This document shows positions 3,818 through 36,200 of a stretch of 64,000 nt of DNA, one piece after another. Under the pieces are notes generated by a model. That model searched no databases, had not been told where the DNA came from, and saw nothing but the letters and a program-made list of their open reading frames with translations. Position numbers and translations under genes: made by a program. Positions within the stretch are counted from its first letter, which is position 1. Every line of letters starts with the position of its first letter. Source of the DNA: a virus; the IMG/VR virus record IMGVR_UViG_3300008259_000013, positions 92,172 through 156,171 of that record; one strand, written 5' to 3'.

Positions 3818-4933
3818 ATGGCAAGACCCAAGAAAGAAGTGCAAGAAGTAGCAGAAGAATCAAACGCTTCAGGAAAACTAAAGGTTCTAGATAGCATCCT
3901 AAGCCGCAACAAAGATCACCATTATGCTTTTGATAATAATATTGATTATATCGTCAGCAGCGGCAGCTTGACTCTCGATATTGAAATGGGCGGCGGCATT
4001 CACCCCGGTATAGTACGGTCTTCTGGAATCACTGAAGGCGGCAAGACCAGCAACGCTCTTGCCTTCGCCCGTAATTTTCAAGTATTGCACCCTGAGAAAG
4101 GTTGTATTATTTATATCAAATCAGAGGGCCGTCTTAGCGAAAATATGGTCGCTAGGTCTGGTGTTGATACAGATCCAGCAAAATGGCGAGTCATTCCTAC
4201 AAACGATTATGAGTTTGTGACCGACACAATGCGCGAATTGATTAAAGATAATGATGAAGGCAACATTTACTTTTTTATAATTGATAGCCTCGACGCTTTG
4301 GTTCCCAGAAATGATCTAGCCAAGTCTGCTACTGAAGCGAACAAAACCGCTGGAGCGGCTTTGCTCACATCAGATCTGTTGCGCAAGATGGCTGCGGCCT
4401 TTTCTTCTAGAGGCCATATTTGCTTCATTATTTCTCAAGTTAGATCTTCGATCAAGATTAACCCGTACGAGAAAGGCGACCCAAAGGTCACTAACGCAAG
4501 CGGCGGAAATGCTGCTCTGCACTACTCCGATTGGATCCTTGAATTCCAGCAGCGGTGGAATAAAGATTTTATTTATGCTAACGCTAAAGGCGATGGCAAC
4601 CCTGTTGGTCATTGGTGCAAGATAGTCTTTAGAAAGACGCCTAATGAAAAGTCTGGTAGAGAGGTCCGCTATCCAATCAAATATGGACGCTCTAACGGCT
4701 CTAGTGTTTGGGTGGAATACGAAATCGTAGACCAACTTTTAGCTTGGGAATTTGCCCACGCCAAAGGAGCGTGGATTACCATTACCGACGAGCTTATCAA
4801 AGAACTTGCTGACAATAGTCTTGAGATGCCAAAACAACATCAAGGCGAGGCCAATCTTAAAAATTTCCTTGAAGAGCATCAAGACATTACACAGTATTTA
4901 TTCAATAAATTTATAAGCGCTCTTAAAAAGTGA
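3818..4933 (+). CDS. recA: RecA/UvsX-type recombinase
   Basis: A 371-residue strand-exchange ATPase that forms filaments on ssDNA for recombination-dependent replication and repair. Walker A is G70-I-T-E-G-G-K-T77. The segment YIKSEGRLS corresponds to the FIDAEHALD block of RecA and keeps the catalytic Glu. Walker B is the hydrophobic strand YFFIIDSLDALVPR, and FIISQVRSSI matches the loop-L1 strand with its ATP-sensing Gln. The first 30 residues are a charged extension, and the C-terminal domain is shorter and unlike that of E. coli RecA. The ATG comes one base after the upstream stop with an A-rich, non-Shine-Dalgarno leader, suggesting coupling. The next gene overlaps by 4 bases and encodes a nuclease, consistent with a recombination module. 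Confidence 0.93.
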   Translation: MARPKKEVQEVAEESNASGKLKVLDSILSRNKDHHYAFDNNIDYIVSSGSLTLDIEMGGGIHPGIVRSSGITEGGKTSNALAFARNFQVLHPEKGCIIYIKSEGRLSENMVARSGVDTDPAKWRVIPTNDYEFVTDTMRELIKDNDEGNIYFFIIDSLDALVPRNDLAKSATEANKTAGAALLTSDLLRKMAAAFSSRGHICFIISQVRSSIKINPYEKGDPKVTNASGGNAALHYSDWILEFQQRWNKDFIYANAKGDGNPVGHWCKIVFRKTPNEKSGREVRYPIKYGRSNGSSVWVEYEIVDQLLAWEFAHAKGAWITITDELIKELADNSLEMPKQHQGEANLKNFLEEHQDITQYLFNKFISALKK

Positions 4934-5346
4934 AGCTTTACAATGTGTACGGAAAGATAGTTAGCAAAAATGTCTCTCAATATTTGATTGACTGGGACGC
5001 TAATTCTCGATCCAAAGTACAATTCAACACAAAGCAATTCTTAAGGACTTACTGGAAAAATCATATAGTATACGAAGAGTTTCCCGTCTTTGGCTCTAGA
5101 CTGAAAGTAGATATCGTCAACGCTACCCTCAGAATAGCCGTTGAAGTACACGGCAAGCAACACACTTCATATAATAAATTTTTTCATGGTGAGTCTCGTC
5201 TAAACTATCTTAAATCTATTAAAAGAGATGTAGCTAAAGAGAAGTGGCTATCTATAAATAAGTTCCAACTTGTGGAAATTTATGAAGACGAAGTCAAAAA
5301 TCTTTCCGCTCAGTTTTTTAAGGATAAATTTAATATAATTCTTTAA
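4930..5346 (+). CDS. PD-(D/E)XK nuclease, VSR/DUF559-like (possible junction or mismatch endonuclease)
   Basis: A 138-residue protein with a compact restriction-endonuclease-like core. D61 (KVDIV) and E72-V-H-G-K-Q-H78 form the D...ExK-type active-site strand pair as seen in VSR and DUF559 proteins, followed by R-D-x-x-K-E-K-W and the strand LVEIYEDEV. In the VSR group this fold cuts beside mismatches. Phage relatives near recA genes could resolve branched DNA. It has an Asp-x10-Glu spacing and a Lys two residues after H74. It overlaps recA (GTG start on GTGA) and abuts the helicase gene by 1 base, so it belongs to the replication and recombination operon. The specific substrate is not shown by the sequence. 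Confidence 0.7.
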   Translation: MKLYNVYGKIVSKNVSQYLIDWDANSRSKVQFNTKQFLRTYWKNHIVYEEFPVFGSRLKVDIVNATLRIAVEVHGKQHTSYNKFFHGESRLNYLKSIKRDVAKEKWLSINKFQLVEIYEDEVKNLSAQFFKDKFNIIL

Positions 5347-6809
5347 TGGCCATATACTCGCTACAGGTAGAAAAATACGTCTTGTCTGGTCTTATCAGAC
5401 ATCCAGCTTCTTTCGCTGACATAGAAAGCTTTATTAATGAAAGTGATTTTATTAATGATGTGCATTACACCATCTTCTGCGTCTTCAAGGAAACGTTTAA
5501 CAAAGGCGAGCAGATTGACAAGATCTTGATTTCTCAAAAATGCAAGAATCTTGGGATTACATTTAAGGATCAATCTATTGATATCTTTAGTTATGTTAAC
5601 AGCATCTGTTTGATACCAACCTCTCAGGCTGGTCTTATTGAAGGCGCTAAAGAGTTGCTTAAACTGCGCGTCAGGCGAGAAATCGAGCAGACCGGGGACG
5701 AGATCAAAAAGTTTGCTAATTCTTGCGCCGAAAAGCCAATTGAAGAAATCATTACAGAATCTGATAAGATTTACAATAGCAAAATTTGCACCTACGCCTC
5801 TGAAAATAATAAACCAGAAGACATAACTAATAATGTCATTGAAATTATTGAAGAGCGCGGCAACAACCCCATCGAAGACACAGGCCTAACAAGCCCTTAC
5901 GCGAACTTTAATCGCCTCTATGGCGGAATTCGACCCGGCAATCTGTATGCTTGGGTAAGCAGGCCAAAGCATGGCAAGTCAACGATCCTAAATGATCTCG
6001 CCATCAAAATTACTTCAATTAACAAAGGATGCAAGGCGCTGGTTCTTGATACAGAAATGTCTACCATAGATATGAAGTTTAGAATAGCTTCATCTTTGAC
6101 TGGAATTCCAGTATGGTATCTTGAAACTGGAAACTGGAAAAAGAACAATAATCTATATCAAAAGTTTGAGCAAAGTAAGGATAAAATTCGTGCTCTTAAT
6201 AATCAAGTCGATCATTTACAAGTCGCAGGCAAACCAATTGAAGAGGTTGTTTCTATTGTCAAGCGCTGGTATTTCTCGAAGGTAGGTCGTGGCAATCAAT
6301 GTGTTGTTGTTTACGATTATATTAAATTAACCGGAGAATCAGATAAGAATAAACAAGAATATCAGCTAATCGGCGAAAAAGTCAATGCCTTAAAGGAGCT
6401 TTGCTCTGAGCTTAATATTCCCATTCTTACTGCTTGCCAATTAAATCGTAGCGCAGAAAGCGGCGTTGATGATAGCAGCGCGATCTCTCAGTCTGATCGG
6501 TTGCAATGGTTCGCTTCATTTGTAGCTATTTTTAGACGCAAAAGTGTTGAAGAAATAGCTGACGACGGCCCAGAATTTGGTTCTCATAAGCTCATACCGC
6601 TTGCCACCCGCTTTCAAGGAAAAGATTCTGCTGGCCATCACGACTTAGTCAGAATCCAAGAAGGCAAAAAAGTTAAATATATGCCTAACTATATAAGCTT
6701 TAACATTAATAATTTTAATGTTCAAGAGACTGGAACGCTTGAGGATATTCTGTCTGCGAGAGCGTTGAAACCTGAGCTTGATGATTCTGGCGATGGCGAA
6801 GTTCTATGA
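5346..6809 (+). CDS. dnaB: DnaB-type replicative DNA helicase
   Basis: A 487-residue hexameric 5'-3' helicase. The N-terminal domain (residues about 1-100, EKYVLSGLIRHP onward) is the primase-interaction region of DnaB. The RecA-like motor domain starts near residue 175. Walker A is S205-R-P-K-H-G-K-S212, with Ser in place of the usual first Gly. DTEMSTIDMKFRIASSLTGIP matches the DnaB H1a region, VVVYDYIKL is Walker B, and TACQLNRSAE is motif H3 with its Gln and Arg. QGKDSAGHHDLVRI contains the arginine-finger-like end. The next gene is the primase, overlapping by 4 bases, so helicase and primase are made together as in a bacterial primosome. No helicase loader gene is recognised nearby. Confidence 0.93.
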   Translation: MAIYSLQVEKYVLSGLIRHPASFADIESFINESDFINDVHYTIFCVFKETFNKGEQIDKILISQKCKNLGITFKDQSIDIFSYVNSICLIPTSQAGLIEGAKELLKLRVRREIEQTGDEIKKFANSCAEKPIEEIITESDKIYNSKICTYASENNKPEDITNNVIEIIEERGNNPIEDTGLTSPYANFNRLYGGIRPGNLYAWVSRPKHGKSTILNDLAIKITSINKGCKALVLDTEMSTIDMKFRIASSLTGIPVWYLETGNWKKNNNLYQKFEQSKDKIRALNNQVDHLQVAGKPIEEVVSIVKRWYFSKVGRGNQCVVVYDYIKLTGESDKNKQEYQLIGEKVNALKELCSELNIPILTACQLNRSAESGVDDSSAISQSDRLQWFASFVAIFRRKSVEEIADDGPEFGSHKLIPLATRFQGKDSAGHHDLVRIQEGKKVKYMPNYISFNINNFNVQETGTLEDILSARALKPELDDSGDGEVL

Positions 6810-7741
6810 ATGACTGCGAATCTGTAAGAAAAATACTTACTGACATAGGATATGTTTTAACTGATCATGGCCGAGAATATCGGACAAGACCTCTTTATAG
6901 AGATTCCGGTAACGATAATGTTCTTAGAATTTGGAAGAATTCTGGCCAATGGGTGGACTTCAAAGAAAACATTAGCGGTTCTATTGAAGATTTAGTAAAA
7001 CTTACCCTAAAACTTAAAACGATTGACGATGCTAAAAAGTGGATTTCTGAGAAAGGGATAGACACATCTTATTCTGAAGACCACCAGCAAAGAGTCACCA
7101 CCACCCAAACTACTGTTTTCGATAAATCTTTATTAATAAAGCTCTCAAGAGACGATTCTTATTGGGAAGGAAGAGGTATTTCAACTCAAACCTTGCAACC
7201 GTTCCAAGGAGGCGTTGCTTCTACAGGCAAGATGTTTAATAGATATGTTTTTCCCATCTTTAACTGCAAAGATGAGATAGTCGGATTCGCTGGGAGAGAT
7301 GTTTCTAAAACAAGTCTAGAAGGACGACCTAAGTGGAAGCTTATTGGAGATAAAAAAGAGTGGGCCTTCCCGCTAAAGGTTAATGCTAAAGACATCAAGT
7401 CTTCTAAAATAATTATCTTAGTAGAAAGCATAGGCGATATGCTGGCGCTTAGAGAAAATGGAATTAATAATTCTATTGTTTCTTTTGGTTTAAACCTTTC
7501 TCCTAAAATTATTTACTCTTTGATTGGCTATAATCCTAAAAAAATTATCATTGCTTTCAACGACGACTCTTTTAATAATGCTGCCGGAAATCTGGCGGCA
7601 GAATCAGCGCAGCAAAGGCTTTTAAATTACTTTGATCCAAGTCAAGTGCAAATCAAGCTTCCTTTCGGAGCAAAAGATTTTGGAGAAATGCATTTAAAAG
7701 ATAGATCTTTAGTTTTTAACTGGTATAATTCTATCCAATGA
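6806..7741 (+). CDS. DnaG-like TOPRIM primase with a Cys-less N-terminal domain
   Basis: A 311-residue primase. Residues 5-70 (YRTRPLYRDSGNDNVLRIW, then GQWVDFKENISGSIEDLV) follow the fold pattern of the DnaG/gp4 zinc-finger domain but lack the four metal-binding Cys/His residues. The RNA-polymerase basal region precedes the TOPRIM core: ILVESIGDMLAL with E207, then IIIAFNDDS with D253 and D254, the magnesium-binding residues. It lacks the long C-terminal helicase-binding domain of bacterial DnaG. It should synthesise RNA primers for the DnaB-type helicase encoded just upstream. A helicase-independent primer-synthesis role cannot be excluded. Start ATG overlaps the previous TGA (ATGA). Confidence 0.88.
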   Translation: MNDCESVRKILTDIGYVLTDHGREYRTRPLYRDSGNDNVLRIWKNSGQWVDFKENISGSIEDLVKLTLKLKTIDDAKKWISEKGIDTSYSEDHQQRVTTTQTTVFDKSLLIKLSRDDSYWEGRGISTQTLQPFQGGVASTGKMFNRYVFPIFNCKDEIVGFAGRDVSKTSLEGRPKWKLIGDKKEWAFPLKVNAKDIKSSKIIILVESIGDMLALRENGINNSIVSFGLNLSPKIIYSLIGYNPKKIIIAFNDDSFNNAAGNLAAESAQQRLLNYFDPSQVQIKLPFGAKDFGEMHLKDRSLVFNWYNSIQ

Positions 7742-8685
7742 GCAACGTAGAAAAAGTAAAGCTAAGCGCTAGTAAAATCAAAACTGCCGAAGGTTGCAGT
7801 TGGCTTTACTATACTAAATATATCCTTAAGCTGCCAGATACATCAAACTCTGGCGCATCTAGAGGAACAATCTGCCATTTAATTTTTGAGCTTCTCTTAA
7901 CTGACAGACACAAGAAATATTTTGAAGATCTATGCTCTGGTAAAGCTGGCGTGATTAAAAACCCAGCTATTCATAGACTTATTCTAAAACACGCTAAAAA
8001 ACTAAAAGTAGATGATGAAGAAAATCTAGATCTGATTTATAACATGATTCAGACTGGTCTTCAAAGCGACTTTTTTTGCAACGGAGCGTTACTTGTAGAA
8101 GCAGAGTCTGAGTTCAAGCTAGAAGAAGAAGACTACATCATCAATGGCTTCATCGACAAGCTCGCAAAATTCAGCGACACAGAATATAAAATATACGACT
8201 ACAAATCAAGCAAGGGAAAATTCTCTAAAGAAGAAATTGACTTCAATCTTCAAAACTTGATGTATTCTTTAGCTGTATTTAAAACTAAGGGGCACATTCC
8301 TGACGTATCTTTTATATTTCTTAAGTTTAAAAAGCAACCGATTCAAGAAGCCCCGAAACCAACCGCAGAACAGCTAGAAGGTTTTAAGGCCTATCTAAGT
8401 TATGTAGCTGGTTATATTTCTTCTTTTGATGAAAAGAAAGCTATCGAAAATCTTGCTGCAAGCTCGCCAAAGAAAAAATGGATGTGTGGAAGCGATGTCC
8501 CCGGCAAGTGGATTTGCCCGTCGAGATCTCCAGTTACTTATTACGTTGGGGTTGACGAGAATGATAAATTTATAAAGTCTTCATTTAAAAAAGAAGATCT
8601 AATTAATGATGCAAAGGTAAAGTTAATAAACAAAAAAGACTACAAAGGCTGCCCCTTCTGGCGCAAGGATGACCCAACTTTCTGA
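7738..8685 (+). CDS. Cas4/RecB-like PD-(D/E)XK exonuclease
   Basis: A 315-residue nuclease of the PD-(D/E)XK superfamily. In order: SASKIKTAEGCSWLYY (C20, the start of the RecB/Cas4 nuclease module), GTICHLIFE with the His of motif I, NGFIDK with D140, YDYKSS with D154 and K156, and NLQNLMYSLAVF, the QxxxY motif. C-terminal C250, C260 and C305 together with C20 could bind an iron-sulfur cluster as in Cas4 and AddB, but their spacing differs from the classic pattern. No CRISPR genes are nearby. In a phage, this fold usually trims DNA ends during recombination or replication. It overlaps the primase by 4 bases and ends right before a promoter. Confidence 0.85.
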   Translation: MSNVEKVKLSASKIKTAEGCSWLYYTKYILKLPDTSNSGASRGTICHLIFELLLTDRHKKYFEDLCSGKAGVIKNPAIHRLILKHAKKLKVDDEENLDLIYNMIQTGLQSDFFCNGALLVEAESEFKLEEEDYIINGFIDKLAKFSDTEYKIYDYKSSKGKFSKEEIDFNLQNLMYSLAVFKTKGHIPDVSFIFLKFKKQPIQEAPKPTAEQLEGFKAYLSYVAGYISSFDEKKAIENLAASSPKKKWMCGSDVPGKWICPSRSPVTYYVGVDENDKFIKSSFKKEDLINDAKVKLINKKDYKGCPFWRKDDPTF

Positions 8686-8719: not shown

Positions 8720-9484
8720 ATGTACTCGGCTGTCCCTTTATTTAAGTCTCACTATAGTCTTGGCAAATCTGTTCTAACTCTTGCGAAAGCCGGATCAAGC
8801 GAGCCTGATGAACCGAGTTCTGTAATAGACATTGCTAAAAAACTAAATCTTAGTAAAATATATTTAGTAGATGATTCTATTTCTGGCTTCCTTGAAGCTT
8901 GCAAATCTTGTGAAGACGCCAAATTAGATTTTACTTTTGGCCTTCGCTTGACTGTCTGCGACGACATCAATAATAAAACAGCTGAATCCAGAGAGAAAGA
9001 GCACAAGATAATAGTCTTCATTAAAAAATCAGAAGGCTATCAGAATCTTATTAAGATATCTACCGTAGCAAGCACTAATGGATTTTACTATTATCCGAGA
9101 ATAGACTGTAAAACTTTAAGAGAGCTTTGGAATAATGAGAATCTTTTGCTTTGCATTCCATTCTACGACTCTTATGTTTACAAAAACAATTTGACTTACA
9201 GCATTTGCGCCCCTGACTTCAGCTTTTGCAATCCAACCTATTTTATTGAAGATAATAATCTTCCGTTTGATGGTATATTAAAGAAGAAAGTAGAGGAAAT
9301 AGTTCCTGATAAAAATCTTGTAGTCAAAGCTCAGTCTATTTATTACGAAAACAAAGAAGATTTCTTGGCATACCTTACTTTTAGGTGCATCTCAGAAAGA
9401 ACAACTTTGAGCAAACCCAACTTAGAGCACTGCTCTTCAAACGAATTCTGCGCCGAGTCATTCAAGGAAAAATATGGAAAATGA
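8720..9484 (+). CDS. DNA polymerase III alpha, PHP-domain subunit (catalytically degenerate)
   Basis: A 254-residue protein that corresponds to the N-terminal PHP domain of bacterial DnaE. LIKISTVASTNGFYYYPRID matches the DnaE stretch L-x-K-L-x-S-x-A-x-x-x-G-F-Y-x-x-P-R-I-D, and FGLRLTV matches the strand G-C-E-V-Y-V. The C-terminus (LEHCSSNEFCAESFKEKYGK) matches the DnaE helix that follows the PHP domain. The metal-binding residues of active PHP phosphoesterases are gone: the N-terminal H-x-H is replaced in LFKSHYSL, D-H by D-D in LVDDSISG, and the Glu by Arg in GLRL. The domain is therefore probably structural, supporting the polymerase encoded two genes downstream. It begins 5 bases after a promoter and overlaps the exonuclease gene by 11 bases. 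Confidence 0.8.
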   Translation: MYSAVPLFKSHYSLGKSVLTLAKAGSSEPDEPSSVIDIAKKLNLSKIYLVDDSISGFLEACKSCEDAKLDFTFGLRLTVCDDINNKTAESREKEHKIIVFIKKSEGYQNLIKISTVASTNGFYYYPRIDCKTLRELWNNENLLLCIPFYDSYVYKNNLTYSICAPDFSFCNPTYFIEDNNLPFDGILKKKVEEIVPDKNLVVKAQSIYYENKEDFLAYLTFRCISERTTLSKPNLEHCSSNEFCAESFKEKYGK

Positions 9485-10112
9485 ACTACTGAGATTTGAT
9501 AAGTCTAAAAAGCTTGTCTTTATTGATTGCGAGACTTTGAATCTCTGCCTTAACTTCTGCCAAAATCTTCCTTGGCAGATTGCGATGCTGCATACTGTTG
9601 GCGGCAAAAAGGTTGACGAAAGAGATTTCTTGATCAAATGGGAAACCAACCTTAAGATATCAGACGATGCAAGACGAATCACAAGATATCCGGAACAACT
9701 TATCCAAACAACTGGCAAGAAATTTGACGATATCTTTGATACTGTTAGGGATTGGCTTGACTCTGCTGACTATATTGTCGGTCACAATATTCTTGGCTTC
9801 GATCTATATCTCATAAAGGAGATGTACCTGTTGAAAGGATTAAGGTCGAATCATTTAGTTGACAAAATTTTAGACACCAACTGCTTAGCTAAAGGAATTA
9901 AGTACGGGATTCCAAAACTCCAAAAGGAATCCCTTGTAGAATATCAATATAAATTACTGCACACTTATAAAAAAGGAATCAAGACAAATCTAACAGCACT
10001 TGGTAAAGACTATAATATCGATCATGATTATGATAATCTCCACAACGCTATAATAGATTTGGAGCTTAACTTAAAAGTCTGGAACAAAATTAAATTTCAA
10101 GTCGAAATATGA
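9474..10112 (+). CDS. DnaQ-like DEDDh 3'-5' proofreading exonuclease
   Basis: A 212-residue exonuclease. The five catalytic residues are visible: D18 and E20 in FIDCET, D110 in GHNILGFD, and H190 and D195 in HNAIIDLE, which is the DEDDh arrangement of DnaQ/epsilon and of the PolC exonuclease domain. It should remove mismatched 3' ends for the polymerase. The gene lies exactly between the PHP and polymerase parts of a DnaE-like enzyme, overlapping the first by 11 bases and the second by 4 (ATGA). An AAGG Shine-Dalgarno-like sequence ends 6 bases before the ATG. A residual helical stretch after residue 130 (about 50 residues) is longer than in minimal DnaQ and may form the contact to the polymerase. 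Confidence 0.9.
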   Translation: MENELLRFDKSKKLVFIDCETLNLCLNFCQNLPWQIAMLHTVGGKKVDERDFLIKWETNLKISDDARRITRYPEQLIQTTGKKFDDIFDTVRDWLDSADYIVGHNILGFDLYLIKEMYLLKGLRSNHLVDKILDTNCLAKGIKYGIPKLQKESLVEYQYKLLHTYKKGIKTNLTALGKDYNIDHDYDNLHNAIIDLELNLKVWNKIKFQVEI

Positions 10113-12676
10113 GCAACTTTCACGATAATTTTTCTAATGTCAAGCTGCCTTTTCATGGCGTTAGATTGCCTGAATTCAATATCGAGTCTCGCTTAAAAAA
10201 GCAATATGGGCTAAAAGAAGATTCTTCTAACTACGATTTCTTGATGCAGGTATGCAGAACCAACTTCAAGAAACTAAATATCGCCAAAGAAGACTTTCCA
10301 AAGTATTCGGAAAGAGTAAAATATGAACTTGAGACCATTAAAGAACTTGGGTTTCTTGATTATATTCTTTTGGTTTGGACTGTTATTAACTACTGTAACG
10401 AAAATTCCATACCTGTCGGCCTTGGGCGCGGTTCTGCTGCTGGTAGTCTTATTCTTTATTTACTTGGCGTCACGAAGGTAGATCCAATTAAATACGAACT
10501 ATTCTTTGAGCGTTTCATTTCTAAGATTCGCGCAAAGAAACAGGTAGTAGATGGAATCACTTATCTTGACGGATCCTTGATGTGCGATGTCGATATCGAT
10601 ATCTGTTATTATAATCGCCATAAAGTAATTAAGTATCTTGACCAGCTTTTCTCTGGCAGAACTTCGAAAATCCTCACTCTTACCACCTTGAGCGGCAAAC
10701 TGCTTATCAAAGAATGCGGTAAAATCATTGAGGAGAAGCAGGAATCAGAAATGAACGATGTAAGCTCTCTGATTCCAAAGGTGTTCGGCCAAGTGAAAGA
10801 CTTGAAAGAGGCTTACGCCGAAGTCCCAGAATTTCAAACTTGGTGCGACAATAATCCAAGAGCCTATAAGACAGCTTTGCGTTTGCGTAATCTTATTAAG
10901 AATAAGAGCGTTCACGCCTCCGGGATGATGCTTTCATACTACCCGATAGATCAAAGCTGCCCTGTTGAACTTACCAGCGACAAAGAACAGGTATCTAGTT
11001 ATGACATGAATTGGATTTCCATCTTCAATGTAAAACTAGACCTGCTTGGCCTTAGAAGCGTTTCAATTGTTGATAGAGTCTGCAAGCTTGTCGGGATTAA
11101 AGTTTCTGATATTGATTTTAATGATTCTTTAATCTATCAGCAACTTCAAGATCTCAAAACTCCTCATGGATGCTTCCAAATTGAAGCTGAAACGAACTTT
11201 AAGGTATGCAAAAAGGTAAAACCTAAAAACCTAGAAGAACTTAGCGGTGTATTGGCGCTGGCTAGACCTGGAGCATTAGAGTTCGTAGATCAGTACGCTA
11301 ACTTTACAAATAATAATGTTTACGAACCGATCCACCCATTCTTCGACTCTGTACTTAGCAAGAGCGGCGGCGTTGCTCTTTATCAAGAGCAGTTGATGAA
11401 AATGTCTAATAAAATCGGATTCACGCTAGACGAAGCAGAAGTTCTTCGGCGTATCGTAGGTAAAAAGAAGGTTGAAGAGGTGAAGAAATGGAAAGAAAAG
11501 ATTTCCGATAAAATCAAGGAGAATAATCTAGCCCCAGAAGTCGGAGATATTCTATGGCGTATTCTTGAAAATTCTGCTAATTATTCTTTCAATAAGTCTC
11601 ACTCAATGAGCTATGCTGCTTTGGCGGCTTGTACAGTGTATCTCAAGTTCAAGCACTCCAAAGAATTCTTCTTGGCTTTGCTTGAGATGACGAAGCACGA
11701 ACCTGCTCCTTTGGAAGAAATATCTAAGATTCAAAAGGAATTGCGTCATTTTGGCATTCAACTTCTTGGGCCTCATATCTTAAAATCAGAAACAGATTTT
11801 TCTATTCAAGGCAATAATATTAGATTTGGCCTTTCTTCTATTAAGGGCATTTCTGAGAAGACAATGGATAAGCTCAAGCTTTTCAAGAGTGAGCAATCTA
11901 GTAAATTTGAAGTTTTCCAAGCAGCTAAAGAAGTCGGCTTGTCTATTGGCGTATTGTCTGCGTTGATTCAAGCTGGTGCGCTTGACGGCTTCTCTAGCTC
12001 AAGAAGCAGAGTCGTCCTAGAAGCTCAGCTATGGAATGTATTAACAGATAAAGAGAAAGTCCTAGCCATGGAGTATGGCCCTCAATGCGAAAACGATCTT
12101 CTTAAAACTGTTAAAAAACTTTCAGAGACCAAAAATGAGAACGGTAAACTTCTTATCAAAGAAACCCGTTTAGCCACCATTAAAAAGAAATATGATCCAT
12201 ATTTAAAGATCTATCAGCAGAATAATAAATCAGAAAGCTTTGCAAACTGGTTTTATGAAAATAAGCTATTAGGCTATAGCTACGACAAATCTCTCAATGG
12301 CATATTCTCGCAAAAAATGCCAAATCTAATCACAACTTCTCAGGCTTTGGAATGCTCTGATAATCAGACAGTTTATGTGGTTGGCAAGGTTGACGATTCA
12401 TCCGAATGGATATCTAAAAACGAGAAGAAAACCAAAACATTTAAGATGATTGTTTCTGATGAATTTGGTTCCATCCCAATTCTTACTTTCAATGATAAGA
12501 TAGAATTTAATAAATCAGCAAATGGTGATAAACTACCTGAGAAAGACGATATAGTTATCGTTAAAGGACAAAAGAAAAAAGACTGCATTTTCGGCGACAC
12601 AATAGGTATCCAAACCCTCAAAATCTACACAAAATTATCAGAACTGAAAGAAAAAAATCTTGACAATCAAGAGTAA
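10109..12676 (+). CDS. dnaE: DNA polymerase III alpha, polymerase core (lacks PHP domain)
   Basis: An 855-residue C-family DNA polymerase, the replicative enzyme of this phage. The palm contains LGRGSAAGSLILYLLGVTKVDP (G106-R-G-S109, the nucleotide-binding loop) and the catalytic D160-V-D162-I-D164. LEELSGVLALARPGALEF, LYQEQLMKMSNKIGF and NYSFNKSHSMSYAALA are typical DnaE fingers and thumb blocks. A helix-hairpin-helix region follows near residue 580, and a C-terminal OB fold begins about residue 750 (VYVVGKVDDSSEW). Bacterial DnaE is about 1160 residues; the missing 250-300 N-terminal residues are supplied by the gene at 8720-9484. I saw no clear beta-clamp-binding peptide. Its terminal codons contain the -35 box of the next promoter. 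Confidence 0.93.
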   Translation: MSNFHDNFSNVKLPFHGVRLPEFNIESRLKKQYGLKEDSSNYDFLMQVCRTNFKKLNIAKEDFPKYSERVKYELETIKELGFLDYILLVWTVINYCNENSIPVGLGRGSAAGSLILYLLGVTKVDPIKYELFFERFISKIRAKKQVVDGITYLDGSLMCDVDIDICYYNRHKVIKYLDQLFSGRTSKILTLTTLSGKLLIKECGKIIEEKQESEMNDVSSLIPKVFGQVKDLKEAYAEVPEFQTWCDNNPRAYKTALRLRNLIKNKSVHASGMMLSYYPIDQSCPVELTSDKEQVSSYDMNWISIFNVKLDLLGLRSVSIVDRVCKLVGIKVSDIDFNDSLIYQQLQDLKTPHGCFQIEAETNFKVCKKVKPKNLEELSGVLALARPGALEFVDQYANFTNNNVYEPIHPFFDSVLSKSGGVALYQEQLMKMSNKIGFTLDEAEVLRRIVGKKKVEEVKKWKEKISDKIKENNLAPEVGDILWRILENSANYSFNKSHSMSYAALAACTVYLKFKHSKEFFLALLEMTKHEPAPLEEISKIQKELRHFGIQLLGPHILKSETDFSIQGNNIRFGLSSIKGISEKTMDKLKLFKSEQSSKFEVFQAAKEVGLSIGVLSALIQAGALDGFSSSRSRVVLEAQLWNVLTDKEKVLAMEYGPQCENDLLKTVKKLSETKNENGKLLIKETRLATIKKKYDPYLKIYQQNNKSESFANWFYENKLLGYSYDKSLNGIFSQKMPNLITTSQALECSDNQTVYVVGKVDDSSEWISKNEKKTKTFKMIVSDEFGSIPILTFNDKIEFNKSANGDKLPEKDDIVIVKGQKKKDCIFGDTIGIQTLKIYTKLSELKEKNLDNQE

Positions 12677-12695: not shown

Positions 12696-13271
12696 ATGCT
12701 TCAATTCTACAAGCCTAACTCTAAGAATACTGGTTGCGGTTGTTCCTTTAAATATTCTGCCAAGGATGACTGTATTTTTGTCAATATGATCAAGCAAGCC
12801 AGTTGGGATGATCAAACCAAGCGAGGATCATTCGCTGGTAATGCTCAAAACCCAAAGGCGTCTTGCTCTGTAAAGCTCAGCCTAACGGAGGCCGCTGATA
12901 TTATTTCTGCCGTCCGTCGTAATGGAGAAGTTTCAGCTTTCCATGATTCTGCGAAACAAGTAACCAGAATCAAGTTCTCGCCTTATGTTCGACCCACCAA
13001 GGATGACCCAAGCAAGACTGCTCAAGTAGGCTATTCTTTTTCAATCTCCAAGGAAAGTAAGGAAAACGCTCAAGACAAGACGTCTTTTCTAATTGGCTTT
13101 ACTTTTGGAGAGGGAGTACGTCTTGAGTCTTTCTTTTGCTATGCTCTAGCTAAAAGTTTTGAAAAGGCTTCACTAGATCAAGATAATAGATCAGCCGCTA
13201 TTCCTCCAGCAGCCTCTCCTAAGAAAGAGGAGGCTCCGAAGCAGGAATCGTCGGATGACGATCTATGGTAA
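12696..13271 (+). CDS. Probable single-stranded DNA-binding protein
   Basis: A 191-residue protein with a beta-rich body of about 150 residues (MLQFYKPNSKNTGCGCSF, IKQASWDDQTKRGSFAG, CSVKLSLTEAADIISAV, TSFLIGFTFGEGVRLESFF), a Pro/Ala/Lys/Glu linker, and an acidic tail ending S-S-D-D-D-L-W. The acidic tail with a terminal aromatic residue is the hallmark of SSB proteins that recruit partners. The body is not a recognisable OB fold; its repeated strand pattern resembles PC4/whirly-type ssDNA binders, so the class is uncertain. Its position directly after the polymerase, under its own promoter, fits a protein needed in large amounts at the fork. Confidence 0.65.
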   Translation: MLQFYKPNSKNTGCGCSFKYSAKDDCIFVNMIKQASWDDQTKRGSFAGNAQNPKASCSVKLSLTEAADIISAVRRNGEVSAFHDSAKQVTRIKFSPYVRPTKDDPSKTAQVGYSFSISKESKENAQDKTSFLIGFTFGEGVRLESFFCYALAKSFEKASLDQDNRSAAIPPAASPKKEEAPKQESSDDDLW

Positions 13272-23557: not shown

Positions 23558-26500
23558 TTATTTTCTATTTATAATTTTAATTACAGAAGATTTAGAGAAA
23601 TCGTCAAATTTAATATCTGGCGCACTCTTTATCTTGCTTATTGTTATATTCACTTCTATATCAGAATTATTAATTATATTATAATTTGCATCTACTGTAT
23701 TTTCTGGGAACAAGCTTTCTACATAAAGACCGCCTATTTCCATTTCGCTTTGTGGCAGTAAAGTATTGTCGGCTGTTTGAGATTGACCCAATAGCTTTTT
23801 GATATTATTTATTTGAGTTGGGTTTAGATTTGCGTCTAAGCCAATCGTAAGCTGTCTATTATCAGGCATCTGCCTAACTGGGCTCAAAGCAGAAAAGAAC
23901 GAATAATTATAATTAAATATAGGAGACCTAAGCCCCGTCTTCTTTATCTCGCATCTTTTAAATGTTATTGTTTTATTTGTGCCTTCTAGATTTATAGTTA
24001 TAGTTTGGCTGTTGTCGATAGCGCTAATAGTCCACCAATCATCAACGTAATCGGAGTTTAACCAAAAAGCCGACTGGTCTCTTGGTATCCAAGCTATAAT
24101 ACTATTTGCAGTTGACTTGTACGCATTTCTAATTTGAGCTTTGAATAACTCAAGTTGATCCACGGCGACCTCTTCTTCTTCAGTTATGCTTGCGTCTGCC
24201 CCACCTTCTTCCCCTTTCTCCTCGGCTTTATTAAACGGCCTGTCTATGTCTTCTACGACTTTATACAAACGAACGAAATTAGGATACTTTATTTCATAAG
24301 TTGTTACATCTTCTCCCACAAATGTCTCGCCATCTGAATAAAACTTTCCTTTATATTTTAAATAAGGCAACTCTGTAGTGTTGGTAAACGCCGTGTCTGT
24401 TGGTATATTTATATTATCAAAAAAGCTCTGGCTTATGCTTACTTGATATTTAATTCCATTTTGTATGCCCGGCAAAGTATAAGTCGATTGGTAGGCATCA
24501 AAGAATAAAAATCTATAAATTGTTTCATGGCCGATTCCTACTTCGTATCCTACCACATTAGAAGGCGAATCCGTTGGTATGTCTTTGCCATTATAGTAAT
24601 TTCTAAGAGCCAGATTTATTGTCGTAGAAGTTCCATCTTTAGATAATAGTTTAACATATGATTTTTGCTCCACTTGATTGTCGTCTAGTATTGGCAAAAG
24701 CTCTTCATTTCTTATTATTCCCAAATTTAGAGTTATTTCTCTCTGTGTCGATATCGCCGTGTTAGGATTGAATATGCAATAAAATTCGTCCCTAGCTTTT
24801 GCTTTTTTCAAATATCTAGAAACAACTCCGCTTGTCGGACCAGCTTCTACGATCATCACTGAATTTCTATAGACTTTTCTTCTTCTATTTTCATCACTTA
24901 ATATATTTACAAAAATATCTCTTGGACAATTATTTATCAAGAAAATTTGCTGCCCATAGCTTGGTGCAGTTACCGTCAAGTCATTATTATTATCTGTTAA
25001 TAGATAATGCCCGGCTGTTGTTATTCTATAGACTGGTTTTAACAAATTATACGATTGAGTATTATTTGTTAAATTCATCGAAGCTAAATTTGTTATATAT
25101 ATGCCTCTGAAATTATTAACTACTGTTTCTATAATGGCTTGATCAGCATAATAATAAGAAGAAGCGTACGTCTCGTCTTTTATTAAAGGAGTGATTATGA
25201 TATTTTTATTATCTTTATCTGACTCTTTTTCCCCAGCAAAACTAACGTAATCATAAATACCATTCAAGAAAAACTTCAAATCAGTTTTTAATAAATAGTT
25301 CGTAGAAGAATCTTTCTTTGATATATAATAAATTCCTTTTTCGTAAGACCCCAAGAAACTAACTCTGGAATCACTTATTTCTATAAAAGATTTTGGCGGT
25401 ATAGAACAAAAAGTCTCTGTAGCAAAATCAAAAAAGATGCTTAAATAATAAGGTGTATTATTGTAAATATAGAACTTTTCTGATCCAAGAAGCCCAGCGT
25501 TTAATAGCTTCAAACTATACGAGTCGAAGAAATTGCCAGAACTGTTTACTTGAGAAGAGCCGTAAATAAACAATTTACTATTAGCATCATAAGAAGTTAA
25601 ATCTTTAAGGTCAAGAACTCCGAATTCTCTGTTTTTTATTATTATTTCTTCTGCTTTATTTTTTGAGTTATATCTAAATAAATATGTATACTTGCTATTG
25701 CCTATATTTTGAATGACCTTTATTCTTGCTCCAAATTTTAGATTTGGATAAAGTTCATTTACTGTTTGTGTTAGATTTTCTGGCGCTCTTCCTTCTGCAT
25801 AGTTGAGCGTTGTCACTGAAAAAACTGACGAAGCATTTAAATCTAAGCTAGATGCAGTAAACAAGTTTTGAGTGGCATTTCTAATTACTCTTGTCAAAGC
25901 TCCATTGCCTAGCAACGAATTATTAGAGCCAATGTACATTCTATATTTGCAAGGATTAAAAACATAAAAATCTCTAAATGATTTATCAATAAAACTATTG
26001 ATGTCTACATTGAATCTATTAAAATTTGGAAGATATAAAAACTCATTGCCCCCTACTATTTCCGTGGTTGATAGCCCAGATATTCCTTTCAGATTTCTAG
26101 CCGTAGCAAATACTTTTTTAACTTGAGGCAAACTAGATGTTTCCTTTACCCAAGCAGAGCCGCTCACAGAATATAAAGCTATTGAATTTACATCAAGTAA
26201 ATTGCTAGTCACCGCTGTGGAATAATTATAAATTGAATTCGGAGCAGAAGAATCTGACTTTACTAAATTAACAAATAATATCTTTTTGCCCGATAGCAAT
26301 GAAGCCAAAGTCGAACCACCAATACTTATATCAAGATTTGGCAAGTAAAATTTAGATGAGTATTTAGTTATTGGAATTAATATAACATTTGGCAAACCAT
26401 TTATTGCATTTTGTGATTTAAAAAACTTAGTTAAATCAGTATGATTTGTATCTATAACTTTTAAATTATATGCCCCGGCGTTGAACTCATCACTTACTCT

Positions 26501-29500
26501 GTCGGTCAAATAAAATTGCTCCTTCTTTATCTTTGTTCCATCGTAAGATGCAAAAAGATAAAAATCATTGACAATATACTTTTTATCGCCTAATTGAGTT
26601 ATGTCGATAGCTTTTCTCCCATAGCAGTAAATAATTTTCGAAGTTGAAACTGATACGGAAGAATAAACGTCAAAAACTGAATAATCAATATCCAGTTTAA
26701 TAGCGTCACCATCTATATCAATAAACGCATCTTGTATTAAATCTATCTTAGAAAAACCAGCCGCCCACAAGGAAGCCAAAGGATGTTCTGCTTCTAAATC
26801 AAAGGCTTGATTACTTAGCGCTATAGAGGTCGGCAAATAAGACACGTTTTCTACTTCGCCAAAAATGTTTGAATCGCTAAAATCAGTAGTATCTGTAGTA
26901 ACTGTGTAAGGCGCTCCAGTATATGTAAACAATTTTTGATTATTACCAGAAGATGGCAAAAGCGTATGCACAAGAACTCCACTCAATGTTTTTATTTCAT
27001 ATGGCCTTCCTGAAACATTTTTAATTACAAAAGAAATCGTTGCTGAAATATCCGGCAAAATAATAGAATCTACATCTGCTTTGTCTGCTTCTATTATATA
27101 ATAAAATGTTGTGCCTCCTGATTTTCTAGTATTAGTTCTTTCAGAATTTACTTGCGCTATGAAGAATTCTTTGTTATTGTATATTGGATATACATAATTC
27201 GCTCCAGAGTTTTTTACTAAGCGGTTTTTCTTAAGAGTTTTTGTAACTGAATCTACTGAAACTGTAACAGTATCATAAGCAAAATTTATTAAAATCTGAT
27301 CTGTCGCTAATGCATTAGGAAAGCTTTTAGCAGTCGATCCGCTCTCACTTTCGTAACTGAATATTCTGGCGTCCGGTATTAAAGGCTTAGAAGCCTGAAG
27401 TCTTCCATTAACATACTCATCTGGAGCATAATCAAAATCAATAGAATTAACTTCTTTTATTCTATATAGATTATTGCCATCCGCTGAATCAAATGATTGT
27501 ATTCCGACGGATTGTTCCAATGTCGGCAAAAATATCTTTCCTTTATACCCATATTTTCTATTATAGCTATCTTTTATTGTAAATGTGTCTATTTGGCTAT
27601 TTCTAATATAAAAATAGTCTTCATGATATCTATCTATTACATTATCCTCTAAATCAATAACAGTGCCGTTTACATTTCTGCTTAAGAAACTTGTTCTTTG
27701 CAATATTGGCAAAGCGTCAGAACTTGAACCAGTTACCCTTAAACATATTGAATTTTGAGCTAAATCCCCTATTTCATTTATTTCCAATGTAGAAGGATTA
27801 TCTTCTGTAGATATTATGTTCTCGGTATCTTTTACTGATTCTTTATTAATTTTATTTGGTAAAAATCTATTTCTGCAAATCAGGAACAGTTCTTTATTTT
27901 GAAGGCTAGAGGCAGGCGGCAAGTTGATTTGAGTTCCGCAGAAATTCAAGTCTAAAATATTAATAGAAGACGAAATCAAAGAATTATCTATATCAAAATA
28001 AAAATGACTCAGAGTTTCGTTTAGGATATCTAATCTGACAACTTGCGTCGAGCCTACTGTCACCAACATTGCTCTTGCTATTTGGTTTTCTGCTAGCGTA
28101 TAGACTATATTTTCCTGGGTATTTCTATAGAAAAATACCGATTGGCTATTTTTATTTACAAAATAAACGAAAGACTCTTTCGGCAACCCTGCGTCTAAAG
28201 ATTTAAGATCTATATATTGAACCAAATCACCTTTAAGCAAAACTAATTGCTCTCTTGAATTTGACAACTCAAAGAATGGCGAAGAAGAAGGATATATAAT
28301 AGAGTAAGTCACCAGTGAAGCAGATTTTTGCGTTACTGTTAACTTGAAATCTTGATATTGCCTTTGCAAAACTTCTATAGAAGAGCCATTAATTATTCTT
28401 ATATTTAATGCTCTATTTATAGATTCATCTTTCAGGAAAAAATAATCTCTAGTCGTTCCAACGGCGGTTGAGAATTGGGACAGGATTATATCTGTATCGT
28501 CTTTTAAGAGTTTAGTAGAATCTTCTTCTGTTTCTTTAGCTTTTAAATATATTTTTATTCCATCAAAATAAGTTTTCTGAGATTTTGAAGCGGATGAGCC
28601 ATTCCAAGAAACATAGTTGAAAGAATCCGCATCTAAACTCAAACCATTGATAACTAATGAGTCTTTAGAAAAATTATAAATTGGCAGATTTGCAAAAGAA
28701 TCAGCCGAAGAAAATTCTCCAGTTGTATGATTAAAATTTATAAACCCTTCTTTAGGATGATAAATTTTAGAGTCTTGCATTGTTACATTTGAATATGTAC
28801 TTTGCGTTTGGATAGACTTAGTCACTCCATCGTCTGAAAACAACAGTTTTTTTGTTTGATTTGCCGATATAGAAACCGTAGATCCAAATGTTACGTTTAT
28901 AGAAGAATTAGAGTCGTTTACTAGAGTTAAAGTTTTCGACGCTATTGAGCTGCTATTTAAAACAGTTACGTTCGCACTTAAATAAAGAATATCATCATCT
29001 TGTTCTGCGTCTAGTAGATCAAAAGAAGAAGAAGGAAGCGAAGCAGCATTTGCTACAGTAATCACCCCATTGTTGGATATTTTAGCGTATTGATTAGTGT
29101 TTACTGATGATCCCCCTACAAAACAACTTGCGTTTCCAGTGTTTAAAACATAAGATTCAAACGAAGATGGAATATTCTCTAAAGATGCGTCCGCCTTGTC
29201 TGTCACGAAATAATATTCATTATAATCTTGATTTATTTTGAAACCAGAGGTTTTAGACTCAGGGTTATTGAAGTCTAACAGTTGACTATAAGTTGGGCTA
29301 GAAACGCTTACCGGAGTGTAAGAAGCCACATTCTCGAACTTTGTTACTGTGTTTTGCTGGGAGTTTGAGTCCCCAACTTCAAAACCATATTCGCTGGCTA
29401 GAGTTTCTTTTTTCTTTACGACAGAAGATTTTATTCCGGAAACTACAATATCATAATAATTATTGCCATTGGCACCGAAATTATAAACTCCTAGATCCAC

Positions 29501-32500
29501 ATTTCTTTGACTAACATCTGGTATAACATATGAAAAACTATTAATTCCAGAAGGCTCCGATCTTAAGAATGTCAGTTTGTTGTTTCTATCTTTCTGATAT
29601 ATATTGTAATAACCACATCCAGCAACCTCATTCCAATCTACCTTAATCGGCAAAAAGTTTGTTTTTTTGATTACATTCGCTGAGTCAGAAGAAACTACTA
29701 ATTTTTCTTGCTTAAAAATCCTAAATTCGTAATTCGCATCGTCTAAGAAAAGTGGCAAATTAGTCTTGAAAGCCACCATTGATAAATAATTTGGCGTCTC
29801 TAAGTCCTCTGCTGAAAAATAATAAGGAGATATCGCCGAATATTCCGCTGAAATAATATCTTTCGAGAACCCAACGTCTTTCGACATCGTTGTCCACCCA
29901 GTAGAAGCCCCAGGGCCAGAAGATCCAGACGATCCAGAAGATCCAGCAGGTGCAGTTTTTAACTTGTATTGCAAATCATACTCCCATCCATAATTAAAAT
30001 TTATGGAATATGGAGATCCAGCATCGCCTATTAAAACTAAGTCCTTAGTATAAAAGTTATATTTTACTTTAGTTATCTGAAGCCTTCTTGTGTTCCTGAA
30101 TCGCCCCTTGCCGTCTAGCACTTCTGTTGAAGGCCTTAATTTTGTTATGTAGCCATTTTCTAGTGTTTCTAAGACATAATTTGATTCGTATTTTTTAGAA
30201 GTTTCGTTTTCTTCTTTTATGTAAATATGATTTTCAAACAATCCGTCGCTTAAAGCGTTTATAGAAGATGTCGTGATTGGTTTGCCCTCATAGTTTTTAG
30301 AGGTATAAGAGCCATTCGGGAAAAAGAATAATGTCGAAAGAAGTTCTTTGGTTTCTTCTTTATCGTCTTGAAAAAATCTAGGTTCAGAGAAATTAGAAGA
30401 ATCTCTTGAGCCGTAGATATTATTATTTATTGGATTTTGATTAAAAAGTGTCCATTGATGATTTTCTAAATTTGCTACTACTTTATAATTATATGTTTGT
30501 ATATTAATTCTAACTTTGGAAGGATCTAAAAGTGAACCAGAGTTATTTGCTATTGTGGTATTAATATATGATTTTGTTATCTTTGCATCGCCTTCGTTTT
30601 CTTCTTGTTGAAAAACTGAATTTGTTAGTCCTTGTTTTATAAACTTCAAAACCACCAAATTTGAGAAAGACGCAGAAGTGGCAGATTCGCCGTTTTGCAC
30701 ATTACTCTTTATAAAAGACAGCGGAGCAGAAGAACTATTATATCCATATAAATGATAAGAATAAGATTTTGTATCTTGGTTCGATATTGTTATATTTGAT
30801 GGAGGGGCGGCAGTCGCAGACCAAGCTCTAAAATTCGAAGTATCATCATAGCTAAAGCTGTTGCCAGTCACATATTCAATTCTGAACAATTTTTCCACTT
30901 CAATATCTTGGTCTTTGAACGATACTGCCCCGAAATTTTCGCCTGTCTGATAAGATAAACTGGCGGCAGAATTTTCCAAAAATCTTCTAAAAGACACTTC
31001 TTCATTGTAATCTTGCGCTGGATAGTAGTAATTTTGTTTACTTATTGTAAAACTATTAGCTTCGTATGGCTCATATGTTTGAACGCAGTAGAGTTTTTCG
31101 ACCTCTTCAGCCGCTAAATCTGCGTCTCCCGGCGTATAAACTCCGCTTAAAATAGCTTGGTTAAGCTCAAATGCTTCGTTTGCTTTGTAAGACTTGGTGT
31201 ATATTTCTCTTTCTACAAACACCCTAGGAGCTTTCGCGGTATTAGAACTAAAAGAATTCACTCCATCTGCGATAGCCGGGCCGCCTATTCTCTCATTTAC
31301 ATCTCGCAAAGCTTGAGAAAACAAAGTATTATAACTATTTTCTGATAAAGAAGGATAAACATTAAAAGATGCTACATAATTTTTAGTATAAAAATAATTA
31401 ACCGCTTTAAGCCAAGACTCTTGATTTACGTAATTATTTTTTGTTATTACCCCATCGCTTTGTATTTGAGTAACTGAACCGTTTTGTATTTTTAAACCGT
31501 CTGAAGCGTATCTGTTGTTATCAAAAAGCGCTGTGTCTCCCTTGCAAAGTCCTGTAGCGTCTATAAAATAGCCATCACAAGTAGAGTTTACTACAGTTCT
31601 AAAAACAGGCTCTGAAGCAGTCGAATTTTTATCTTCATTAATATAATAAGCCAAAACCCCGAACTGATCTCCACAAGACACAAAAGTAGGGCTTAATCCA
31701 TAGTTTGACAGAGGAGTAACTATGTAACTTTCTCCGGTATTTAGATAATTTGAATAGAAGTCTCTAGTTATTATTTTTTTAGGAAGAGGAAAATTCGGCA
31801 AAGCTGTTTTATAAACAGGCATTTCATTATTTGCTTCCGTTAGCAAGTCTTGATCATTTTGGTCTATTTCAGCTCTGGTTTCCCAAGCCTCAGTATTTTC
31901 TGCCCTAGAATCCTCTTCTCCAAAATCATCGTTATAAGCTTTAGCTAAAGCATCAAAATTATCCTGTATTGTTTTAGCCAATTGACTTTGGTCTTCTTCG
32001 TCTCCTGCTTCTGGAATTTGTATATCTTGAGCGTATTTTTCTGATTCATTTAATTGCTCTACGTCAATCAAATCTTGAACGTTTTCATATCCGAATGGCT
32101 CACCATCTTCGCTTATTCTTGGATAAACTGCGCCACCTGCATTTAATGATATATTAACAGCACCAGCTCCTAGATTATAACTTGACATGACATACCCAGA
32201 AACCGCTGGTTTTTCTCTTGTGTTATATCTTTCTACTTGGACATCTAATTTATAAATTTCTTCTGTATCGCCAGTAGTTAGGAGAATAAACTTAAACAAG
32301 TTATCGCTTTTGCTTAATTTGAATCCAGTGAAGAATGAGTCGTTCTTGATTTCTCTTGTTTTTATTTTGTCTGTATCTAATATATTTTGGAACTCTTCTT
32401 TAGTGAAAGAAATCTCTGTCACAGGTTCAAATGCATAACTTATTTGGCCATCTATTACTCCAGAGACCTCTTCCTTGTATTTAGAGTAGTCTATTATAGC

Positions 32501-33274: not shown

Positions 33275-33275
33275 G

Positions 33276-36200
33276 TTATTGTCTTCCAACCATATTTGGA
33301 CTTATTGGTACTGATTGATCGCCAGAATTATCATAAGAGTCTCTCATTAGGTCTTCAAATAAATAATCTCCTATAGCAGAATCATAACCTCCAGGTATAT
33401 TTATTCCACTTAAACCAGCCCTAATAATAGCTTCTACTTGTCCCGGACTCATTTCAGAACCTTTATTCACAAAACCATTACACATTGCTCTTAAATAATA
33501 TTCCATTTGTATATAATGGTCGGAATACATTATCGTGTTTTTATCGACCTTTGGGATAAGTTTTACAAAGTAAAATCTTGGATAACAACACCCAAACGGT
33601 CTTTGTTTTTGCCAAAAGTTACCATTATCCATTGAAACATCCCCATTTACGCCTCTCGGGCATTGAATGCCAGCCATTGTATGACAAAGATAATTTATTA
33701 ATGCATTTTCATCTGTTCTATATGAATCAACATTAACTGCCGCAAACTTTATAAACTCTTGGATTTTGCTACTTAGTCTTCCTTTAGGAGTTCCATCTCC
33801 AGTATTTTGTAATCTATTTTCTATAATTACTTTAACGATATCTGATTTCGGGTCGTATGGATTTAGTCTAACTATTGATTTTATTTTATATGGAGGTCTA
33901 TAAATAGGACAACTAGCTGCAAAGTTTGCTGGATGATTTAAATTTCCGCGCCAGTCTCCGTACTGAGGTTTTGTATTTGCGCTTTCTATGTAGTTGTATC
34001 CAGATGGCGCTTCTACAATCAAAGGCAAATCGTTCGGCTTAGAAGACACATTAGCCAAAGCTTGCTTCACATTCCTTGATGTGCCTCTGAATGGCTCAAG
34101 AGACTGGCTAGCCGTTAAGCATCTTGCGTTTAAAGCTCCCATTATGTCTCCATACATTGAAGGCTTCCAATAAGAGCTATTAGACCAGTGGTATAAATTA
34201 TAAGTCATGAACATGGTCCATTCGTTACTTATATTGCCAGATGGTTTTTGTTTTATTCCATCTATAATGATTTCTCCCTTATCTATTCCTTTAATTAAAG
34301 AGTCTGGTGTTATTCCATCTAACTCAAAAACTCCGATTGTGCCCGTAGAATACTCTGAAACAAAATAATAATCTCCGCCCTTGAATGTCGCGCCGTGCTT
34401 TAATATTTTCTTTTTATTATTATCTATATATATAACATGAGAATTTGTTCCCCTTAGTGAGGGTTCTAATTCTATCACAATATAATCCTTGCCTTTGACT
34501 ATTGGAATAAATGTTTCTGCTTTTGCGCCTCTTATCGATCTGTTGCCTACTTCAGTAACAGATGGCCCCATGTTTCTGAAGATATCTACGCCAGTATTTT
34601 TCATACCCATTGCGTATCTATTAAAATATAAAACAGAATCGCCATCTTCATTTACTTCATAATCCAATAAAGCTGTTCTATCAGCCATTCTTACGTTACT
34701 AGTTATGAATTTTCTAGCAGATTCATACACTGGATTAGCGCTAACATAAGCATCATTTTGATAAAGAGTTTTCTTTCTAAAGTTATACGCTACTCCATAT
34801 CTTATATAATTTGTAAATACTGTTTTAGCAGTATCCGCATTAAAATGCCCTACTGGGTCCATTTGCCCAGCATCTGTTCCTGCGCCTTCTGTAGTCGCCA
34901 CTCTCATCATTACATAAGCATCAGCGGCGCTTGGCTTCATTTCTAGAACATGAGCGAACTGTATTGTTATGGCAAAGTTATTTTTTGTTACTGTTTGAGT
35001 TACAATTTTCTTTCCTAAATTTATAGAACCAAAATTATTGTAAGAAGGATTAGGTATTCCATTCGAACCTCTTATCTTAAAAGAAACACTCCCTTTAACT
35101 GGATAAACAAAATAGTGTATTTTATTGAATTGATAAACTTTATAAGTGTTAGCAGAGTTTAAGGAAAGATCATTAACTACTCCAGTTCTATTATTTAAAA
35201 TATACTTATCATTAGAACTCAATGACACAGATTCGTAAATTTCATTATTAACATAAATATCAATAAACATTCCAGATAACAGGGACTCCCCGTTCTCCGA
35301 AATACCACAAGCTATGTCAGAAGTTTGTATAAAGATAGCCGATAAACAAAATCTATTGTTAGATCCTGGAGGATTAGTATTAAAAGCTCTTAATTCTTTG
35401 CCAGATTCATCTTGACCTTTAAATAAAAACGTATCGCTAGCATTTGTTGGTAAAAAATAATCATTTGTTGCCGTATTTTTAACTGCCAAATCAAATGAAA
35501 TATTCCACAAAAAACTTCCTGGCCCTTCTGGGAAAAGTTCAGGATAGCCAAAAGAGTCATATTTTATTTTTTTATTTCCCAAGCTATCCGTCTTTATTTT
35601 ACCCGAAGAATCTAGTTCATATTTTGGTCTAGAATAATTTGGGGCTAAAAGAAATTGTCTTGAAAAAAACTTTTCAAAATCAAACCCATGAGTTATCACG
35701 GTTCTTCCTTTTATTGAATGTCTAGCTCTTTGATCTTCTGTGCCTCTGAAAAAACTTAAATAATAAAAAATAGCTTGCTCAATTTGATCTTTGGAAGCAT
35801 TCTTTTTTCTGAAAATCCCGCCTTTTCCCTCTTGGTCAGGCACATAGCTAGGCGCATATCTTCCTGAAGATATTGCCTCTGTAACATATCTTAAATGCCT
35901 TCTGGCCGCAGAGCATATCCCTAAAGAAGAAAGCTGCAACTCTTTAGTTGATGGCTGCAAGGCATTTCTTGGTAAATATTTATAATTTTGCTCAAACGCT
36001 AAACAACCTCTTTGTATTTCTGAATCGCTCCATACAATATTTAAGTTCGGATCGCCGCTTATTTTTTTAGGCATTTTGTCTGGCAGCGCTAGCTCTAAGC
36101 CGCTTAATCTAATCGGCTCAGACCAATATCCATGAACTCCATCTCTCGTATTGTCTTTAGTACCATTAGCTTGTGTTACTCTTGCTGCGTTGCCAAAAAT

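Follow-up and report, generated by a model that had tools for sequence, protein, structure and literature searches.

The replicase locus

The window analysed here, a stretch of 64,000 bases corresponding to bases 92172-156171 of the 174,551-base IMG/VR virus record IMGVR_UViG_3300008259_000013, carries three consecutive genes for a PHP protein, a DEDDh exonuclease and a polymerase of the DnaE type:

8720..9484, + strand: PHP protein of 254 residues, a free-standing DnaE-type PHP domain with its metal site lost (Pfam PHP 7.6e-12; PHROG 405)
9474..10112, + strand: DEDDh 3'-5' exonuclease of 212 residues (Pfam RNase_T 1e-9; PHROG 192)
10109..12676, + strand: DnaE-type polymerase without PHP, 855 residues, with palm, fingers, HhH and OB (Pfam; PHROG 405)

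A first-pass annotation had described three open reading frames (ORFs) overlapping by 11 bases at the PHP/exonuclease joint and by 4 bases at the exonuclease/polymerase joint, and a reading of the coordinates and of the bases confirmed both overlaps. The start of the exonuclease gene is preceded by a Shine-Dalgarno-like AAGGAA, and an ATGA is common to the end of this gene and the start of the polymerase gene.

The two outer ORFs represent successive portions of a single DnaE, since they match the same DNA polymerase family (PHROG 405, 1190 positions) serially, the PHP protein over positions 62-292 and the polymerase over positions 316-1082. Aligned to E. coli DnaE, the PHP protein ends at residue ~249 and the polymerase begins at ~259, which supports the earlier proposal that one stops and the other starts within an otherwise continuous DnaE. 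No intein remnant was seen at the joint between these two parts, where the end of the PHP protein and the start of the polymerase are native DnaE sequence.

The three proteins

The 855-residue chain is, by sequence and predicted fold, a C-family polymerase of the DnaE type without PHP in the same chain. Its Pfam domains (DNA_pol3_alpha 6e-56, DNA_pol3_finger 1e-31, HHH_6 3e-15) and its match to PHROG 405 (5e-160) are accompanied by profile scores of 3e-110 with Taq DnaE and 1e-99 with the E. coli enzyme, against only 2e-6 with PolC. The residues D162, D164 and D311, equivalent to E. coli D401, D403 and D555, are invariant in 105/105 sequences. The structural model (predicted local distance difference test, pLDDT, 78.8) has a carboxy-terminal OB, and its best Foldseek matches are the DnaE of Taq and of Mycobacterium tuberculosis (Mtb), ahead of PolC. 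Confidence is low for the first 15 residues of the model, on the side of the missing PHP; an end in need of a partner could look like this, but nothing is proven by it. No conserved QxxLF-like clamp-binding motif was found in the polymerase among the 105 sequences.

In a few relatives the polymerase is itself divided. Four loci (L043:5998-8956, L037:5968-9509, L173:7630-10632 and L213:4986-7970) have it split again by split-intein-like pieces at ...NYSFNK|SHS..., with ~94-110 residues of the presumed intein after the first piece and ~40 before the next. This break is close to the split-intein site of cyanobacterial DnaE. In L037, an HNH endonuclease-like stretch also lies in the first polymerase piece. 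The replicase of these four loci would be coded by four genes. A second split-intein-like break falls inside the polymerase active-site motif, at GRG|SAAG, in L295:4995-8042.

The PHP protein matches Taq DnaE at 2e-10 by profile, and the structure predicted for the protein of the window (pLDDT 83.7) retains the PHP fold, with E. coli and Taq alpha and alpha-epsilon chimera structures as first Foldseek matches. Its metal site, judged from the ligand set, is destroyed, and the protein is predicted not to be a metal-dependent PHP nuclease: the nine positions of the ligand set HHDHEH[C/H]DH read -,K,D,D,R,K,C,S,Y in the window. Free PHP proteins keep only 0-2 of the nine ligands; the full set is present in 19 of 21 fused controls, and four ligands remain in E. 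coli. Conservation within the protein is highest in a near-invariant P-x-F-K-S-H-Y-S-x-G-K-S, a candidate contact located at the former first metal ligands. The domain is uninterrupted and the three ORFs are separate, unlike the layout of PolC, where the exonuclease lies inside PHP in a single chain.

A near-identical copy of the window (L035:4655-5159) has its PHP ORF cut after 110 residues, either by a frame error of the assembly or by a real mutation.

The exonuclease belongs with the DNA polymerase exonuclease subunits of PHROG 192 (1e-19). Its residues D18, E20, D110, H190 and D195, forming the D-x-E, D and H-x4-D motifs, are invariant in 105/105 sequences.

A module conserved in uncultured phages

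Relatives were collected by scanning viral sequences and bacterial genome contigs with the sequences and profiles of the three proteins, giving hundreds of matches. Once near-copies sharing the same 60-residue polymerase stretch had been removed, at least 161 non-redundant loci, viral or metagenomic, had the complete set of three genes in view. Loci were sampled by their resemblance to the window and its deepest relatives, and the group is larger than the sample. The order PHP, exonuclease, polymerase on one strand was found in 161/161 loci; PHP is a separate ORF in all of them and fused to the polymerase in none (0/161). In nine further loci, the contig end was reached before PHP could be seen. 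Because almost all loci were found via the polymerase or PHP, the exonuclease stands as independent evidence. The arrangement is thus lineage-wide in a large group of uncultured phages, beyond what chance would give.

No isolated phage with the three-gene replicase was present in the phage collection, where the best polymerase match had 27% identity over most of the length and where neither the exonuclease nor a deep-branching PHP had a match. Neither the viral scans nor the bacterial genome scan yielded an intermediate, be it a fused PHP-polymerase with the exonuclease or a split enzyme without it.

The joints are far less constant than the gene order. PHP and the exonuclease are at most 60 bases apart in 90/161 loci, and more than 60 bases apart, often with whole other genes between them, in 71/161. 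At the second joint, the corresponding counts are 94/161 and 67/161. Cargo genes between PHP and the exonuclease, up to several per locus and named by eye, include glycosyltransferases, cupins, a PfkB-type kinase, a radical SAM protein and an IMP dehydrogenase-like enzyme. Between the exonuclease and the polymerase, 54 loci show a gap of ~200 bases with a conserved small ORF. The first-pass annotation had tied the exonuclease to the joint between PHP and polymerase; this does not hold, as in many relatives unrelated cargo genes stand on either side of it. With such insertions, the exonuclease is better seen as a constant component of the module than as a domain fixed at a joint.

In many relatives, a conserved protein of 71-86 residues, often with an acidic tail, is encoded just before the polymerase (for example L068:5766-5981, L008:5741-6001 and L198:6213-6464), even where the exonuclease is distant. 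It is absent from the window's genome and is a possible fourth subunit, theta-like in size.

Common history of the three genes

First trees gave long-branch warnings, and those of PHP and polymerase were rebuilt after removal of the long rows. In both, the split enzymes form one side of a fully supported branch (100) with the same membership, apart from every fused DnaE sampled, namely DnaE1-like enzymes, putative DnaE3 and fused phage enzymes. The Enterococcus, Staphylococcus and Listeria records are those that we take to be DnaE3. The stem of the split clade measures 1.3 to 1.5 changes per site in the PHP and polymerase trees. The trees of the three genes agree closely, with Mantel r values of 0.89 for PHP and polymerase, 0.92 for exonuclease and polymerase and 0.86 for PHP and exonuclease, the best of 300 permutations reaching 0.28. 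A few conflicts among the gene trees may be due to recombination. This agreement shows that the three genes travel as a module.

The first-pass annotation had named a branch shared by PHP and polymerase as support for its reading, and this is what was obtained: both are of the DnaE type and belong to one clade with the same membership and agreeing trees. The two parts were not found in different clades, nor was the exonuclease gene found elsewhere without PHP.

When rooted with three PolCs, the best tree nests the split clade within the fused DnaEs. With this outgroup, the approximately unbiased (AU) test does not reject a topology constrained to keep every fused DnaE in one group (p 0.21). 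Since PolC also has PHP in one chain with the polymerase, a fission on the stem of the split clade would be the simplest reading of this history.

A probable three-chain replicase core

We consider that the three genes probably encode the core of a three-chain phage replicase of the DnaE type. The 855-residue chain would act as the polymerase, and the PHP protein would be the amino-terminal domain of the same DnaE, separated from it by gene fission. Having lost its metal site, the PHP protein is most likely a scaffold, which would complete the polymerase fold in trans and hold the exonuclease. The latter would supply proofreading, and the overlap of the genes within one block would allow all three chains to be made at once. 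Domain identity, the catalytic residues kept or lost, gene order and co-inheritance are direct observations. Binding among the three chains, a requirement for PHP and proofreading by the exonuclease are inferences.

A precedent is provided by proteobacteria, in which a PHP with a dead metal site accompanies a separate DEDDh exonuclease, lends stability to the polymerase and serves as the docking site of epsilon (PMC3666897, PMC3919608, PMC12926913). The recurrence of this pattern in the phage module, a dead PHP together with a separate proofreader, suggests a core of three subunits. The helicase, primase and nuclease genes around the module also speak for it, as does the failure to find a polymerase of family A or B in the 174.5-kb record. 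The latter negative is weak, since a search of this kind also overlooked the known exonuclease and the record is possibly incomplete.

Two points weigh against such a core. E. coli epsilon binds PHP via its carboxy-terminal tail, and the phage exonuclease ends 15-17 residues past its last catalytic Asp, with no epsilon-like PHP-binding tail. The cargo genes found between the three genes weaken the case for tight co-translation.

The missing tail argues for a new interface and leads to a more speculative proposal, which we regard as unlikely while still worth stating. The free PHP could be a dedicated, dissociable adaptor that docks the tail-less exonuclease via a new surface and thereby moves the replicase from synthesis to editing and back; no such function has been described for PHP. 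The P-x-F-K-S-H-Y-S-x-G-K-S stretch would be one candidate for such a surface.

The cargo genes intervening in many loci and the tail-less exonuclease could also be taken to mean that PHP, the exonuclease or both simply lie next to an independent polymerase and serve other functions, such as nucleotide salvage or host DNA breakdown. This seems improbable to us: the PHP protein matches not only the PHP domain of DnaE but also the segment after it, the loss of its catalytic site leaves little but a structural role, and independent neighbours would hardly be retained in every locus with agreeing trees.

On the historical side, the phages might have kept a state that preceded the joining of PHP and polymerase in DnaE and PolC, a reading already proposed for another enzyme, the minimal Pol III found in jumbo phages (PMC7824862). 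Despite the AU result, under which a split clade branching first is not rejected, we judge this very improbable. The best tree places the split clade inside the fused DnaEs, and with PolC being a single chain with PHP as well, fusion is most simply ancestral to both.

The idea that a PolC gave rise to the three genes, by breakage on either side of its exonuclease domain, deserves hardly any credence. The best match of the exonuclease profile among PDB sequences is indeed the exonuclease domain of T. maritima PolC (7e-8, against 4e-4 for E. coli epsilon). However, the exonuclease of PolC lies within PHP, and the phage polymerase, with its DnaE domain order and carboxy-terminal OB, stands outside the PolC branch; profile scores and the rooted tree led us to reject this descent. 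Although the ORFs of the window overlap by a few bases, a single natural protein broken by sequencing error or read through programmed frameshifting has practically no chance of being correct and is rejected, as the split is repeated in 161 loci with joints ranging from -121 to several thousand bases, many overlap lengths and all three relative frames at both joints.

Comparison with known systems

The first-pass annotation had seen here a third arrangement beside PolC and DnaE plus DnaQ, and PHP, exonuclease and polymerase as three ORFs indeed form one. Its statement that the gene order runs PHP, exonuclease, polymerase stood throughout the sampled loci. The analogy with PolC is one of gene order only and does not amount to a recreated PolC, the PolC exonuclease being inserted inside PHP and not after it.

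A close parallel is the E. coli Pol III core, or DnaE1 plus DnaQ of alpha-, beta- and gammaproteobacteria, which likewise combines a DnaE-type polymerase, a ruined PHP metal site and a separate DEDDh exonuclease. In proteobacterial DnaE1, however, PHP remains within the polymerase chain, whereas it is a separate protein in the phage module. The two systems differ further in the PHP-binding tail, present in E. coli epsilon only, and in gene location: E. coli dnaQ does not adjoin dnaE, while the phage exonuclease gene sits in the polymerase module. PolC of low-GC Gram-positive bacteria also unites polymerase, PHP and DEDDh exonuclease in one unit but does so in one chain, with the exonuclease inside PHP, another domain order and a different branch of the family.

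Among phages, fused DnaE enzymes (Moorella phage MTATph1, Streptomyces phage Circinus and gut phage scaffolds) are similarly phage-encoded polymerases of the DnaE type, but they have PHP in the chain, mostly with all nine metal ligands. No such exonuclease gene occurred in the flanks examined at their loci. Group 2.2 jumbo phages have a minimal Pol III alpha divided into separate proteins (PMC7824862). There, in contrast with the present module, the split lies within the catalytic module, the genes are far apart, PHP is missing and a family B polymerase is found alongside. DnaE is likewise encoded by more than one gene where split inteins (cyanobacteria) or endonuclease genes (Bacillus phage KLEB27-3) interrupt it, but the cut is inside the polymerase and intein halves rejoin.

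In Bacillus phage KLEB27-3 (L245:3906-8303) and Rossellomorea phage phiT1 (L246:3161-6443), an HNH gene and a small ORF interrupt DnaE within its polymerase part. These breaks indicate that phage DnaE genes have been broken at several sites independently.

PHP has been called invariably present in C-family polymerases and structural where its active site is dead (PMC3666897). No description of a free-standing polymerase PHP was found in the literature searched, which did not extend to the 2011 viral-replicase survey of Kazlauskas and Venclovas. We class the module as a replicase core of the DnaE type in which PHP would be a subunit of its own.

Genomic surroundings

The three-gene module belongs to a replication block that also contains helicase, primase and nuclease genes. 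The counts for upstream genes below refer to the 108 loci with enough upstream sequence.

4930-5346: small nuclease-like ORF of 138 residues before the helicase, weak match to HNH/homing endonuclease PHROGs; relatives in 27/108 loci
5346..6809, + strand: DnaB-like replicative helicase, 487 residues (Pfam DnaB_C 1e-22); homologue upstream in 93/108 loci
6806..7741, + strand: Toprim primase, 311 residues (PHROG 47, DNA primase, 6e-19); 95/108 loci
7738..8685, + strand: PD-(D/E)XK nuclease, 315 residues (Pfam PDDEXK_1 8e-15); 99/108 loci
12696..13271, + strand: protein of 191 residues directly after the polymerase, acidic tail ending SSDDDLW; homologue in 76/130 loci
23561-33289 and 47459-57991, - strand: giant ORFs of 3243 and 3511 residues in the structural half of the genome (ORF listing)

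The 191-residue protein has no Pfam or PHROG match, and its tail is the one feature by which it may be likened to a single-strand-binding protein. Among the matches listed, the phage also encodes a UvsX-like recombinase, ribonucleotide reductase, rII genes, ThyX and PhoH.

Concluding remarks

The roles of PHP have been hard to separate, because mutating the domain destabilises the whole polymerase chain (PMC3666897). A phage lineage in which PHP is naturally a separate protein allows polymerase, PHP and proofreader to be mixed in any combination, and the role of a dead PHP for Pol III and its proofreader becomes directly testable. The module would add a third means by which a replicase of the bacterial type is coupled to proofreading.

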